NCBI GenBank assembly: GCA_009840525.1
Contig: VXNP01000152.1
Span: 1-64,000 of the forward strand
Direction of reading: 5' to 3'
From: Gammaproteobacteria bacterium
Lineage (GTDB): Bacteria; Gemmatimonadota; Gemmatimonadetes; Longimicrobiales; Gaopeijiaceae
Length of the DNA: 64,000 bases
The notes beneath the pieces are model-generated. The model saw nothing but the letters and a program-made list of their open reading frames with translations, did not search any database and was not told the DNA's origin. This document shows, one piece after another, positions 856 through 9,426 of this stretch; the stretch's first letter is position 1; the number at the start of each line of letters is the position of its first letter. The position numbers and the translations under genes are program-made.

Positions 856-953
856 GCGACGCCTGTCGCGGCCTGACGGAAGAGTTGAACATTTCGAGCC
901 TGAGCGGTGTCCTATCGAAGCAGCGAGGCACGGCAAGCCGGCGCCCGTCGATG

Positions 954-983
954 TTGACAGAGAGGGTGGCGCCCTCGTACCAT
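954..983 (+). promoter_or_regulatory. Possible sigma-70-type promoter
   Basis: A consensus -35 TTGACA at 954-959 is followed after 18 nt by TACCAT (four of six matches to TATAAT). It lies in the 220-nt gap between selB and the secreted protein at 1076, in the right direction to drive that gene. Nothing else is recognised in the gap apart from the hairpin at 1047. Confidence 0.4.
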
Positions 984-1046
984 GCCGTGGTGGTGCAGAC
1001 TCATTTTTTCCAGGATGCCTGGGAGGGCTATCGTTCCTAAGCTACT

Positions 1047-1063
1047 GCACAGAAAAACTGTGC
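1047..1063 (+). promoter_or_regulatory. 5'-UTR hairpin next to the ribosome binding site
   Basis: GCACAG, five A residues, then CTGTGC form a perfect 6-bp stem with an A5 loop. It ends immediately before the Shine-Dalgarno GGAGGGG (1064-1070) of the gene starting at 1076. It could affect translation or mRNA stability. There is no U-run, so it is not a standard terminator. Confidence 0.4.
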
Positions 1064-1075
1064 GGAGGGGTTGAT

Positions 1076-1522
1076 ATGAGACGCTTCCTACGCGTCTTGA
1101 CAGGCCTCCTCCTCATCCCGCTCGTTGGTCTGGATCCTACCTCGGCCCAGGAAACGGGTGATCGGGGACGCCAGCAGAATCCCGGATTCGAGTTGCGTCA
1201 GAACTACCCGAATCCGTTCAATCCGGAGACCCGCATCCCCTTCTCGTTGGGTGAAGAGTTGTTTTCGGGCGGGGAGCCGGTCGTCGTGTCGATTCGCATC
1301 TACAACGTGCTCCAGCAGTTGGTCGCCTCCCCCACGGCCCTGCGCAACCCGGGCAGCGACGGCTTCCCCGTGTCCGACATGGAGTACGAAACACCGGGGG
1401 ACTATGAAGCCTACTGGGATGGCCGGGACCTCGAAGGCAACCAGGTTGCGTCCGGGATCTATCTCCTCGTAATGGAGGTGAACGGTCGCTCGAACGTCAT
1501 CAAGATGTTCGTGACCAAGTAG
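1076..1522 (+). CDS. Small secreted protein with FlgD-like / T9SS-type Ig fold
   Basis: 148 residues. An N-terminal signal peptide (about residues 1-24, ending in 'SAQ') is followed by the motif 'QNYPNPFNPETRIPFSL', then 'YNVLQQLV', 'YWDGRDLEGNQVASGIYLLVM' split over two strands, and a closing beta strand. This is the FlgD Ig-like fold used as a C-terminal domain in Bacteroidota and Gemmatimonadota exported proteins. Here the domain is almost the whole protein, so there is no catalytic cargo. The start is fixed by a strong GGAGGGG ribosome site and the hairpin before it. It may be a stand-alone surface or secretion module; the role is unknown. Confidence 0.65.
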   Translation: MRRFLRVLTGLLLIPLVGLDPTSAQETGDRGRQQNPGFELRQNYPNPFNPETRIPFSLGEELFSGGEPVVVSIRIYNVLQQLVASPTALRNPGSDGFPVSDMEYETPGDYEAYWDGRDLEGNQVASGIYLLVMEVNGRSNVIKMFVTK

Positions 1523-4147: not shown

Positions 4148-5997
4148 ATGAAGCCCGAACCCAGGTCGGCGTACCGACTCGCCATCGTCGCCGCGCTCGC
4201 GACGGGGCTCATGCTGCTCTGGATCATCGGTGCGGTCGGGCTCATCGGCGTGGAGGGCGATCCATTCGACCGTTCGTACGGGGGCGTGCTCGCCGTCGGC
4301 ATGATGGGGGCCCTGATCGCCCGCTTCCGGCCGCGGGGAATGGCGCGCGCGATGGTCGCGGCGGCGTTCGCCCAGGCGCTGGTGGCCGTAATCGCCCTGA
4401 TCATCGGCAAGCAGCACTCCCCGGTCAGCTCCGTGGTAGAGATCCTGGGCCTGAACGGGTTCTTCGTGGTGCTCTGGGTGGTGTCGGCGCGGCTGTTCAT
4501 CCGGGCCGCGCGATTGCGGAGCTCGGCGGAAATGACCACCCGCGCTATCCCGATCCTGATCGCCATGGGGCTGGCGTTGCCGGCAACGCTCGAAGCCCAG
4601 GCCGGCGCGCCGGGGCAGGCGTCCGCCCCGCCCAGGACCATCTTCGACGGGGCGACGGTGATCGACGGCACCGGAGCTTCGGCCAGGACCGGCGTGGCCA
4701 TCGTGATCGAAGGAGAAGGCATCGCCTCCGTCGTCCAGGCTGCGGACCTGACCGACGAGCTACGCGAGGGCGCCGAGGTCATCGACGCGAGCGGATGGTT
4801 TGCCATCCCCGGTCTCGTCGAGTCGCATACGCACGTGGCTACGATGGCCAACCGCGCTCGGGCCGAGTTTATCCTCAACCGCCAGCTGTATGCGGGGATC
4901 ACGACGGCGCGTGACATGGCGGGCGACGTGCGCTCGCTCATGGACCTGCAGCGCGCTTCCCTGGTCAAGGAGATCGACGCGCCCGACCTGTACTTCTCGG
5001 CGCTCATGGCGGGACCGGTGTTCTTCACCGATCCGCGCACGGTCTCGTCGGCGGCGGGCGAGACGCCCGGCGAGGTGTCGTGGATGCAGGCCGTCACGGA
5101 GGAGACCGATCTGGCGCAGGCCGTGGCGCAGGCTCGGGGCACCTGGGCCACCGGCATCAAGACCTATGCGGCGATCGACGGAGACCTGCTGGCCGCGATC
5201 ACCGCCGAAGCCGACAGGCAGGGAATTCCGGTGTGGTCGCACACGCACGTCGGGCCGGCGCGGGCGCTCGAGGTGGCCGGGACGGGCGTGCGCTCGATGT
5301 CGCACGTGTGCAGCGTCGGCAGCGCGGCGATCCCGGACGGCGTCTTTCGCGAGGGGCAGGAGGGGCGCCGCACCGGGTTCGTGGAGGTCGACCTGAAACA
5401 CCCGGCGGTGGATTCGGTTTTCGCGCTCATGAGGCGGCACGGCACGGTGCTGGACGCGACCATCCGGGTCGTCGTCCAGGTCGGGCTGAGGCGCATGGCG
5501 GCGATCGACACGGTCAACGCGCCCCTTCCCGGTGAAGCTGCGGAGGGCGCGGAAGCAGGGCCGGGACCTCGGCGGCCGCCCATCGACCGGCGCCGCCGCG
5601 GCGTGCGTGCCGGGTGCGAGACGGCCGACGCGATTGCACTCACCCGCCGGGCGTGGGAGGCGGGCGTCATGGTCGCGACCGGGACCGACGGCATGACTCC
5701 GCCCACCTCCGATTTCCCGGCGCTCTTCGACGAAATCCGCCACCTGCACGACGACGTGGGGATGCCGATGCTGGACGTGCTGAAGGCGGCCAGTTACCAC
5801 GGTGCCGTCGCGCTGGGGCTGGAAGACTCGATCGGCACGATCGAGCCCGGCAAGCACGCCGACATCGTCTTCCTGCGGGAGGACCCGCTGGCCGGGCCGG
5901 AGAGCCTGCGCTCGGTGGAACTCACGGTGAAGCGCGGTACGCCGTACTACCGGCGGGACTTCGTGCTCGGAGCGCCGCGCGCAGGACCACCGGGACG

Positions 5998-6001
<4 letters not shown>
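4148..6001 (+). CDS. Membrane domain fused to metal-dependent amidohydrolase
   Basis: 617 residues in one frame with a good GGAGGA ribosome site. Residues 1-125 contain about four hydrophobic segments. An internal Met at residue 129 (4532) begins a second, complete-looking signal peptide ending 'LEAQA'. The rest is an amidohydrolase: HxH metal site His227/His229, the carboxylated-lysine position at Lys338, His365 and His367, then 'TGTDG' and the C-terminal '[14 protein letters not shown]'. Family members hydrolyse cyclic amides, dipeptides or similar compounds. The protein is either a true fusion or two genes joined by a lost stop codon. The stop overlaps the next start by ATGA, so the sigma-54 regulator downstream is translationally coupled. 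Confidence 0.8.
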
Positions 6002-7503
<1,502 letters not shown>

Positions 7504-7514
7504 CCGCCGGCGGC

Positions 7515-7556
7515 CTACAATTCTGTAGCTTCGTTCTCAATCCTACCAAAATGTAG
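7515..7556 (+). promoter_or_regulatory. Twin activator sites CTAC-N6-GTAG upstream of amt
   Basis: Two copies of CTAC-N6-GTAG lie at 7515-7528 and 7543-7556, 28 bp centre to centre. The second extends to perfect 6-bp arms (TCCTAC...GTAGGA, 7541-7558). They sit about 150 and 123 bp before the start predicted from the -24/-12 element, the normal range for upstream activator sequences bound by sigma-54 activators. Binding by the adjacent regulator is inference. Confidence 0.7.
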
Positions 7557-7647
7557 GAACCGCTGTTTGCGGCCGTGCCCCCATCCGCCTGCGGCACATC
7601 CCGCAAGAACAGACACGGCAACAGGTTGCGCATCCAGCACGTCCCCC

Positions 7648-7661
7648 GGCATGCCGCTTGC
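7648..7661 (+). promoter_or_regulatory. Sigma-54 (-24/-12) promoter of amt-PII
   Basis: CGGCAT-GCCGC-TTGCC fits TGGCAC-N5-TTGC, with the invariant GG at 7648-7649 and GC at 7660-7661 separated by exactly 10 nt. The predicted transcription start is near 7673, about 80 nt before the amt ATG. It is on the same strand as amt and downstream of the two palindromes. Confidence 0.7.
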
Positions 7662-7754
7662 CCTGCACCGCCCCGAACCGGTCGCGGACCGAGCAGCCCG
7701 CGGACGAATCCGCGCGCCCGCGCCCACGCTGGACCGACTCCCGGGAGGTGAACC

Positions 7755-9056
7755 ATGCGGTTCCTCATGACGCTTGCGTCAGTCGTACTCCTCGCCGCCT
7801 TTCCCGATGCGGCCGCCGCGCAGACGGCCTCGGCGGCCGACGCGCTCTTCGCGGTCAACAACACCTGGATGATGGTGGCGACCTTCCTCGTCTTCGTCAT
7901 GCACCTGGGGTTCGCCACCCTCGAGTCCGGGCTGACCCAGTCGAAGAACACGGTGAACATCCTCTTCAAGAACATGGGGATCATCGCCATCGGGCTCCTC
8001 ACCTACACCCTGGTGGGGTTCAACCTGATGTATCCGGACGAGTTCGCGCTCGGCGGCTTCCTCGGCTTCACCGGGATGGGCATCGGCACGGACGCCGCCG
8101 GGGTGACGGCCGAGTACAACCCGGGCTACACGTATTGGACGGACTTCCTGTTCCAGGCGATGTTCGCCGCCACGGCGGCGACGATCGTGTCCGGGGCCGT
8201 GGCGGAGCGGGTGAAGCTCGGTTCGTTCCTGCTGTTCGCGACGATCTACGTCATGTTCGTCTATCCCGTGGTCGGGTCGTGGAAGTGGGGCGGGGGCTGG
8301 CTGGACGGGCTGGGGTTCTACGATTTCGCCGGTTCGACGATCGTCCACTCGGTGGGCGGCTGGGCCGCGCTCGCGGGCGTGATCTTCCTCGGTCCCCGGC
8401 TGGGGAAGTACGTCAACGGCGAGATCCGGCCGATCCTCGGCCACAATCTCCCGCTCGCCGTCATGGGGATGTTCCTCCTCTGGCTGGGCTGGTTCGGCTT
8501 CAACGGGGGTTCGGTGCTGAGCGCCGACCCGGGACTGGTCTCGTACGTGCTCGTCACCACCTCGCTCGCGGCCGCCGCCGGCATTGTCGGGGCCATGGCG
8601 ACGACCTGGGTGGTCCACAGGCATCCGGACGCCTCGATGGTCCTGAACGGGGCGCTCGCCGGGCTCGTCGGAGTGACCGCCGGCGCGGATGTGGTGAGCG
8701 TTACGGCCGCGGTCATCATCGGCCTCGTCGCGGGGGTGATCGTCGTCATCTCCGTCGAGTCGTTCGACCGCGCAAAGCTCGACGATCCCGTCGGGGCGAT
8801 CTCCGTGCACCTGACCTGCGGCGTCTGGGGGACGCTCGCCGTGGGGATCTTCAGCGCGGATCACAGCCTCCTGACCCAGTTGGTGGGCGTGGCGGCATGC
8901 GGGGCCATCGCCTTCCCGGCGGCCGCGCTCATCTTCCTTGTCCTCAGGAGTACCGTCGGCCTCCGGGTGAGCCCCGAGGAGGAACGGCGGGGCTTGGACC
9001 TCGCGGAGCACAACATGGAAGCCTACCCGGATTACACCATCTTCACGGCTCGCTGA
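7755..9056 (+). CDS. amt: Ammonium transporter Amt
   Basis: 433 residues with a cleavable signal peptide (1-22, 'AAAAQ') and about eleven membrane segments. Landmarks are 'WTDFLFQAMFAATAATIVSGAVAER', here split across helices, the first pore histidine in 'STIVHSVGGWAAL' and the second in 'GAISVHLTCGVWGTLAVG', so the twin-His conducting pore is intact. It moves ammonium across the cytoplasmic membrane and is normally gated by a PII trimer; the PII gene follows 25 nt later. A strong GGGAGGTG ribosome site fixes the start. Transcription is probably from the -24/-12 promoter at 7648. Confidence 0.95.
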   Translation: MRFLMTLASVVLLAAFPDAAAAQTASAADALFAVNNTWMMVATFLVFVMHLGFATLESGLTQSKNTVNILFKNMGIIAIGLLTYTLVGFNLMYPDEFALGGFLGFTGMGIGTDAAGVTAEYNPGYTYWTDFLFQAMFAATAATIVSGAVAERVKLGSFLLFATIYVMFVYPVVGSWKWGGGWLDGLGFYDFAGSTIVHSVGGWAALAGVIFLGPRLGKYVNGEIRPILGHNLPLAVMGMFLLWLGWFGFNGGSVLSADPGLVSYVLVTTSLAAAAGIVGAMATTWVVHRHPDASMVLNGALAGLVGVTAGADVVSVTAAVIIGLVAGVIVVISVESFDRAKLDDPVGAISVHLTCGVWGTLAVGIFSADHSLLTQLVGVAACGAIAFPAAALIFLVLRSTVGLRVSPEEERRGLDLAEHNMEAYPDYTIFTAR

Positions 9057-9081: not shown

Positions 9082-9426
9082 ATGATGAAACTCGTAATTG
9101 CGTACGTTCAGCCCGATCGGCTGCACAGCGTCAAGGAAGCGCTGGCCGAGGTGGAAGTGGGACGGATGTCGGTGACCAACGCCCTCGGCTGCGGACAGCA
9201 GGGAGGGTTCACGGAGACCTACCGGGGAGCCGACTTCGAGGTGAGGCTCCGCAAGAAGGTGCGCTTCGAGATCGCCGTGAACGACAATTTCCTGGAACGG
9301 ACCAAGCAGGCGATCATCAAGGGCGCGCGCACCGGGAACATCGGCGACGGAGTGATCTTCGTGCTTGAACTCGCGGAGTGCTACCGGATCCGGACGGGTG
9401 AGGAGGGCTCCCCCGCGATCGGCTGA
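9082..9426 (+). CDS. glnK: PII signalling protein (GlnK/GlnB-type), variant T-loop
   Basis: 114 residues; ATG at 9082 or the next codon. PII fold landmarks are present: 'KEALAEVEVGRMSV', the T-loop 'GQQGGFTETYRGADF', 'ARTGNIGDGVIFV' and 'YRIRTGEEG'. The genetic link to amt points to GlnK, which blocks Amt when nitrogen is plentiful. Aligned with E. coli GlnB by eye, the residue at uridylylation site Tyr51 is Phe (Phe52 here), and Lys85 and Lys90 are replaced by Asn and Val. Gln39 and Arg101/Arg103 are kept. Uridylylation by GlnD at Tyr51 is therefore not possible, and nucleotide binding may differ. Confidence 0.88.
   Translation: MMKLVIAYVQPDRLHSVKEALAEVEVGRMSVTNALGCGQQGGFTETYRGADFEVRLRKKVRFEIAVNDNFLERTKQAIIKGARTGNIGDGVIFVLELAECYRIRTGEEGSPAIG

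Follow-up and report, generated by a model that had tools for sequence, protein, structure and literature searches.

Which regulator switches on the ammonium transporter gene amt and the PII gene behind it is the question raised by this locus, where a putative sigma-54 activator is encoded directly upstream of both. The window analysed here, a 64 kb stretch of DNA on contig C96, belongs to a genome of 4.0 Mb that is 98% complete. It carries, on the forward strand, the gene of a NifA-like one-component sigma-54 activator (5998-7503), whose ATG shares 4 bases with the stop codon of an upstream open reading frame (4148-6001), followed by amt as the predicted target gene (7755-9056; PF00909, 382.7 bits; TIGR00836, 405.6 bits, above cut-off) and by a PII-family signal protein gene (9082-9426; PF00543 and alignment with E. 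coli GlnB), second in the predicted target operon.

The activator contains the Pfam domains GAF_2, GAF, Sigma54_activat and HTH_8, and its translation includes the GAFTGA loop (ERGAFTGA). It has in this way the AAA+ domain, the Fis-type helix-turn-helix and the loop of sigma-54 enhancer-binding proteins, in agreement with the GAF/AAA/Fis architecture given in a first-pass annotation of the locus. The receiver domain of NtrC response regulators is absent, a GAF domain being found instead. Its top NCBIfam model is NifA (TIGR01817) at 509.7 bits, under the cut-off of 528.85, which is passed by four of the six relatives scanned (L088, L089, L094, L107) and failed by L098 and L022. In a tree of 38 rows, several of whose reference branches are long and which is without AnfA or VnfA sequences, none having been found among the matches listed from plasmid searches, the window protein lies inside a 23-row clade (support 98/96) that is sister to the NifA references, with a joint support of 88/92. 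The only cysteines are at positions 43, 119, 138 and 251, those at 43 and 138 not being conserved in orthologs, and an N-terminal GAF cysteine cluster of the AnfA/VnfA type is absent. The GAF domain in the PDB that is nearest in sequence is that of Aquifex Nlh1 (89 bits, vs 53 bits for NifA), which was also the closest in a profile search. An AlphaFold model of the activator is of moderate quality (pLDDT 73.8, pTM 0.46) and its Foldseek matches mainly reflect the AAA+ domain; with moderate confidence it places a single helix (145-188) where Nlh1 has its signalling helix. The activator is best described as a NifA/AnfA-like protein assigned to ammonium uptake.

The gap of 251 bp between the activator gene and amt holds two palindromes and a -24/-12 element. 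The distal palindrome (7514-7529), with CTAC-N6-GTAG at 7515-7528, is a predicted enhancer site for an activator dimer, and so is the proximal one (7542-7557), which reads CCTAC-N6-GTAGG with CTAC-N6-GTAG at 7543-7556; the distance of 28 bp from start to start is exactly that first annotated. These are the only two CTAC-N6-GTAG matches in the window, where 0.12 are expected and one of 100 shuffles gave two, and the exact CCTAC-N6-GTAGG occurs once in the whole genome, as the proximal palindrome. Further downstream, the predicted sigma-54 element CGGCATGCCGCTTGCC (7647-7662, forward strand) includes CGGCATGCCGCTTGC (7647-7661), the sole exact YGGCAYGN4TTGC in the window, in which GG (7648-7649) and GC (7660-7661) show the reported GG-N10-GC spacing without deviation. 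With one mismatch allowed, this pattern has six matches in the window vs 6.3 expected; since such matches occur at the chance number, the element taken alone is weak, and its support comes from conservation. A transcription start predicted near 7673, 12 bp past the GC, would put the palindrome centres near -151 and -123, matching the distances of about 150 and 123 bp that had been proposed. Tandem TAC-N6-GTA-type dyads ahead of an RpoN site, as found here, are characteristic of AnfA/VnfA sites, and rpoN, whose presence had been named as a check on the circuit, lies elsewhere in the genome. No match to the NifA enhancer TGT-N10-ACA occurs anywhere in the window, and a search of 7400-7800 for sigma-70-like promoters, by a scan that may not fit this phylum, gave none.

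An ortholog of the activator with 93-100% identity and an intact reading frame is present in all 11 same-genus genomes, and both palindromes occur at all 11 loci. Among 59 genomes searched, orthologs at 79-81% identity were found in three other genera. A pair pattern, defined as two palindromes with a gap of 10-20 bases, matched 13 of 395 genomes of the phylum (the reversed control pattern matched 4 of 395), with one pair in each, in five genera of one family, and all 13 pairs lie between activator and amt. When the window gap was aligned with those of 11 out of 18 Gemmatimonadota loci (L073, L075, L076, L081, L085, L108 and L109 being left out), making 12 intergenic regions and five genera in all, 23 of the 24 columns in the half-sites and in GGCA/TTGC are invariant as against 9 of 231 elsewhere (p = 2e-24). 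GGCA and TTGC of the -24/-12 element do not vary in any of the 12 regions, the sole imperfect column being due to the distal site of L082, which ends in GTGG. Outside the alignment, L085 has a distal site ending in GTGG plus one exact site, and L109 has one exact site in its gap. These counts bear out the conservation at orthologous loci on which the first-pass annotation had staked its claim. Chance palindromes were rejected given the genome-unique site, the single pair in each of the 13 genomes, the low number expected in the window and the invariant columns.

Amt itself was found in 28 of the 59 relatives. Fifteen amt loci have no activator in the fetched stretch, and the palindrome is present at one of these, L228 (G025), and at none of the other 14; of these, L234 offers fewer than 300 bases of upstream sequence, and L224 shows a TAC-N6-GTA that lacks the outer C and G. 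In L228 the palindrome is accompanied by a -24/-12-like element with no activator detected adjoining, an exception that may reflect an assembly gap or another activator. At L023 (G029), an activator relative of 55% identity stands ahead of amt and the palindrome pair is degenerate. In genus g52 (L080) the PII gene is followed by one for glutamine synthetase (6893-8365). The end of L197 (G032:C27) and the start of L198 (G032:C111) have the same sequence around a palindrome, so these two contigs, which belong to one metagenome-assembled genome, may abut. The nearest named relatives are metagenome-assembled genomes titled Gemmatimonadetes, BD2-11 clade or Gammaproteobacteria, the last probably mislabelled: L072, L073, L076 and L108 bear that title and are likely mislabelled bins, since the locus closely matches Gemmatimonadota.

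None of the 59 relatives, the window's own genome included, has nifH above cut-off, and the activator appears to be a NifA relative that controls ammonium uptake where nitrogenase was not detected. Two family members (G019:C34 and G026:C189; L055 and L056) carry pairs of NifH-like proteins that score about 200-234 bits and fall short of the nifH cut-off; these may be BchL/BchX of phototrophic gemmatimonads.

Relatives of the activator that are about 50-60% identical occur in Spirochaetota, Myxococcota (titled Deltaproteobacteria), Hydrogenedentota, Planctomycetota and Rhodothermota, the GAF alignment having yielded 43 loci. Amt and PII genes adjoin the activator in six Spirochaetota loci (L088, L091, L092, L100, L104, L105), and a Planctomycetota locus has the activator, then a porin-like gene, then amt. 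In L098 the activator is followed by nifH, PII, PII and nifD, and in L094 by a second activator. A site matrix trained on Gemmatimonadota sites only gave a single-site p no higher than 0.025 in 12 of 21 gaps behind the activator, the site being absent or not significant in the other nine, and a combined p of about 1e-12 over 19 non-redundant gaps. Within the gap set, L088, L091 and L092 are closely related, L093 is counted twice, and L023 belongs to Gemmatimonadota; L102, being too short, was left out. The single-site statistic is independent of spacing; the pair statistic was not blind, its spacing range of 26-32 having been chosen after the gaps were read.

The genes behind matrix-positive gaps are amt, nifH or a second activator; the L103 gap leads instead to a contig end, where the reading is similar to the start of amt in L104. 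The best pair in the L098 gap before nifH is CCGACAAAAAAGTAGC and CCTACCGTCATGTAGC, 28 bp apart, followed by TTGGCCTGCATCTTGC. Within a pair the sites are spaced by 28 in the window genus and by 29 in the four further Gemmatimonadota genera; a spacing of 30 was seen in four Spirochaetota loci and in the L093 gap before amt. Since 9 of the 21 gaps are without a significant site, amt is not the target of every clade member, and the notion of amt as the one target common to the whole clade was rejected. Activator, sites and promoter travel together across genera, and together with amt-PII they extend into Spirochaetota as well; this comparative evidence supports the sigma-54 circuit that had been proposed for the locus.

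Among 20 non-Gemmatimonadota genomes carrying activator relatives, two have nifH above cut-off. In a Spirochaetales metagenome-assembled genome (L163, G425) nifH is followed by PII-like frames, with its upstream region interrupted by a contig end; an activator copy (L090) lies on another contig.

Similar sites precede genes other than amt. In L082 (genus g4), CCTACATTTTGGTAGG and TGGCACGAGACTCGC lie upstream of a TorF/Gcw_chp putative porin gene, and such sites also precede genes like it, with scores below the Pfam cut-off, in L193 and in L201, the latter truncated by a contig end. Porin genes above the Pfam cut-off stand after the activator in L089 and L093, where the L089 gap and the first L093 gap contain only TTAC-N6-GTAA-like sites that are not significant. 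In two species of genus g23, CTAC-N6-GTAG and TGGCACGGG-N-CTCGC precede a small gene (L196, 2938-3432; L198, 280-795) for which no Pfam family was found and which, on the strength of these sites, is a possible further target.

The NifA-like kind of the activator and the AnfA type of its sites had escaped the first-pass annotation. Experimental work on R. capsulatus yielded TAC-N6-GTA as the AnfA consensus; in that species two AnfA sites and an RpoN site lie within the 266 bp between anfA and anfH (PMC7294313). The targets of VnfA1 are described as bearing GT(T/A)C-N6-GTAC, usually with two such motifs (PMC9542535). The window locus resembles these AnfA/VnfA systems of R. capsulatus and A. vinelandii in the GAF-AAA+-HTH order, the two tandem dyads, the placement of the activator gene immediately ahead of its target and the location of both the sites and the RpoN site within the activator-target gap. 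It differs from them in that the target is amt-PII and not nitrogenase, and in that the activator has no N-terminal cysteine cluster. In D. vulgaris too, the nifH upstream region contains CTAC-N6-GTAG and a -24/-12 element. The AnfA consensus, the VnfA1 dyads and this nifH region put the site type on the AnfA side of the family; the apparent difference from that side is the use of such sites before amt.

Classical NifA provides the best NCBIfam model of the window activator and the sister position in the tree. The nifA-nifB gaps of reference plasmids have TGT-N10-ACA in three of four cases, one of these three also having a TAC-N6-GTA that overlaps its promoter, and the fourth has neither site type; the window locus, in contrast, has CTAC-N6-GTAG, and its activator lacks the cysteine set found near the AAA+ end in two references. 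Nlh1 of Aquifex aeolicus is likewise a NifA-like homologue, with the nearest solved GAF, but belongs to another phylum and has another target. A paper of 2000 reportedly describes binding of the NifA-like protein of Aquifex upstream of glnBA. Nlh1 is thought to act in nitrogen assimilation rather than fixation (PMC9866876).

Two further systems are described in Desulfovibrio vulgaris: DVU1949, a one-component activator predicted for nitrogen metabolism and transport, and DVUA0143, which is AnfA/VnfA-like, predicted for nif and assigned the nifH operon; the analysis there found no conserved sigma-54 promoter near either gene (PMC4641369). Their regulons differ from the window locus in target and phylum. 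In Herbaspirillum, NtrC is described as exerting sigma-54-type control of amt and PII, together with the membrane protein gene nlmA (PMC3023670). The NtrC-glnK-amtB arrangement relies on two-component NtrC and GlnD-modified PII, whereas a one-component activator is found here. The annotated departure from the usual NtrBC control is supported to this extent, with Aquifex Nlh1 and Desulfovibrio DVU1949 as precedents for one-component activation in nitrogen assimilation. Among the matches listed in the openly accessible literature, no report links amt of Gemmatimonadota or Spirochaetota to a NifA-like activator; the novelty of the circuit is reduced by the Nlh1, AnfA and Desulfovibrio precedents.

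As for the signal input, Tyr51 of E. coli GlnB is replaced by Phe in the window PII, and it is missing from all eight PII rows aligned to E. coli GlnB, the other seven having Phe, Leu or Ile. GlnD was detected in none of the 11 genus genomes by a search that was positive in 5 of 14 named control genomes. The features of uridylylated PII are thus not found, and from the absence of Tyr51 and the undetected GlnD we infer that PII would be controlled by ligands alone. In R. palustris, deuridylylated PII is reported to inhibit AnfA, an inhibition that is gone without the GAF domain (PMC12093980), and the dimeric signalling helix of Nlh1 is described as keeping the AAA+ domains inactively arranged until GAF binds its ligand (PMC9866876). 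The Rhodopseudomonas PII-AnfA mechanism may not be transferable to the window activator. A second amt of the genome lies on contig C114 (L241, about 4981-6225, reverse strand), with a Gcw_chp/TorF putative porin gene (889-1422, reverse strand) within about 4 kb; no TAC-N6-GTA was found in the 500 bases read ahead of this second amt.

Taken together, the locus is very probably one in which a NifA/AnfA-family activator, acting at two TAC-N6-GTA enhancers, drives sigma-54 transcription of amt-PII. Dimers of the activator would bind these enhancers, which lie some 123 and 151 bp ahead of the predicted amt start; under nitrogen scarcity the AAA+ ring would form, the DNA would loop, and the activator would remodel sigma-54 RNA polymerase at -24/-12, turning on amt and PII. 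More tentatively, GAF and the signalling helix could keep the AAA+ domains in an inactive state, in the way proposed for Nlh1, and ligand-controlled PII in its nitrogen-excess state could inhibit through GAF, as for Rhodopseudomonas AnfA, closing a negative feedback. The role of the activator in this lineage would be ammonium scavenging rather than nitrogen fixation. The parts named in the first-pass annotation stand, but its word 'complete' is too strong as to the signal input.

The promoter and palindromes might instead be served by an NtrC- or NtrX-like two-component activator encoded elsewhere, the GAF activator doing another job. The genome has three response-regulator activators (L003, L005 and L001, the last with NtrX as its best model at 445 bits), any of which could act at the amt promoter, and the L228 sites have no activator detected beside them. 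Yet none of the three reaches the ntrC cut-off of 558.6 (409, 332 and 431 bits), and the palindromes, whose core is that of the AnfA site, co-occur with the GAF activator across genera and phyla and are found at only one of the 15 amt loci without it, which makes this alternative unlikely. An NtrC above cut-off in the window genome was rejected, none being found among its strong activators.

A relic or passenger NifA of a lost nif cluster, with persisting sites and amt transcribed mainly from another promoter, would agree with the similar sites that relative L098 has ahead of nifH-PII-PII-nifD and with the rarity or absence of nifH apart from L098. Such a relic is nevertheless very improbable given that sites and promoter are strongly conserved across the five genera, that the activator frames are intact and, subject to the fit of the scan to this phylum, that a nearby sigma-70-like promoter is lacking. 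Equally improbable is an autoregulatory or repressive role of the palindromes, for instance in curbing readthrough out of the activator gene, in place of an enhancer role for amt: CTAC-N6-GTAG does precede the activator gene in L082, L085, L094, L095 and L099, but the window has no further copy and so none upstream of its own activator gene, and the sites stand before -24/-12 elements ahead of amt, TorF-type porin and nifH genes.

The use of a NifA/AnfA-like activator and AnfA-type sites for ammonium uptake is supported by this comparison of sequences, with precedents in Aquifex and Desulfovibrio. On a wider and more speculative view, for which the odds are somewhat less than even, a NifA-like clade spanning six phyla (Gemmatimonadota, Spirochaetota, Planctomycetota, Hydrogenedentota, Myxococcota and Rhodothermota) would run an ammonium-scavenging regulon of amt, PII and TorF-type porin genes through TAC-N6-GTA enhancer pairs, with no NtrBC or PII uridylylation, and control of nitrogen fixation would perhaps be a derived use of the activator family and not its first. 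The NCBI NifA model would label such proteins nif-specific activators, as it does the four relatives that pass it, and since nifH is above cut-off in so few of the non-Gemmatimonadota genomes that carry them, being annotated as NifA is in itself a poor indicator of nitrogen fixation. The compact locus, with PII in the operon of a GAF activator and apparently without uridylylation, would offer a minimal PII-activator feedback open to testing.
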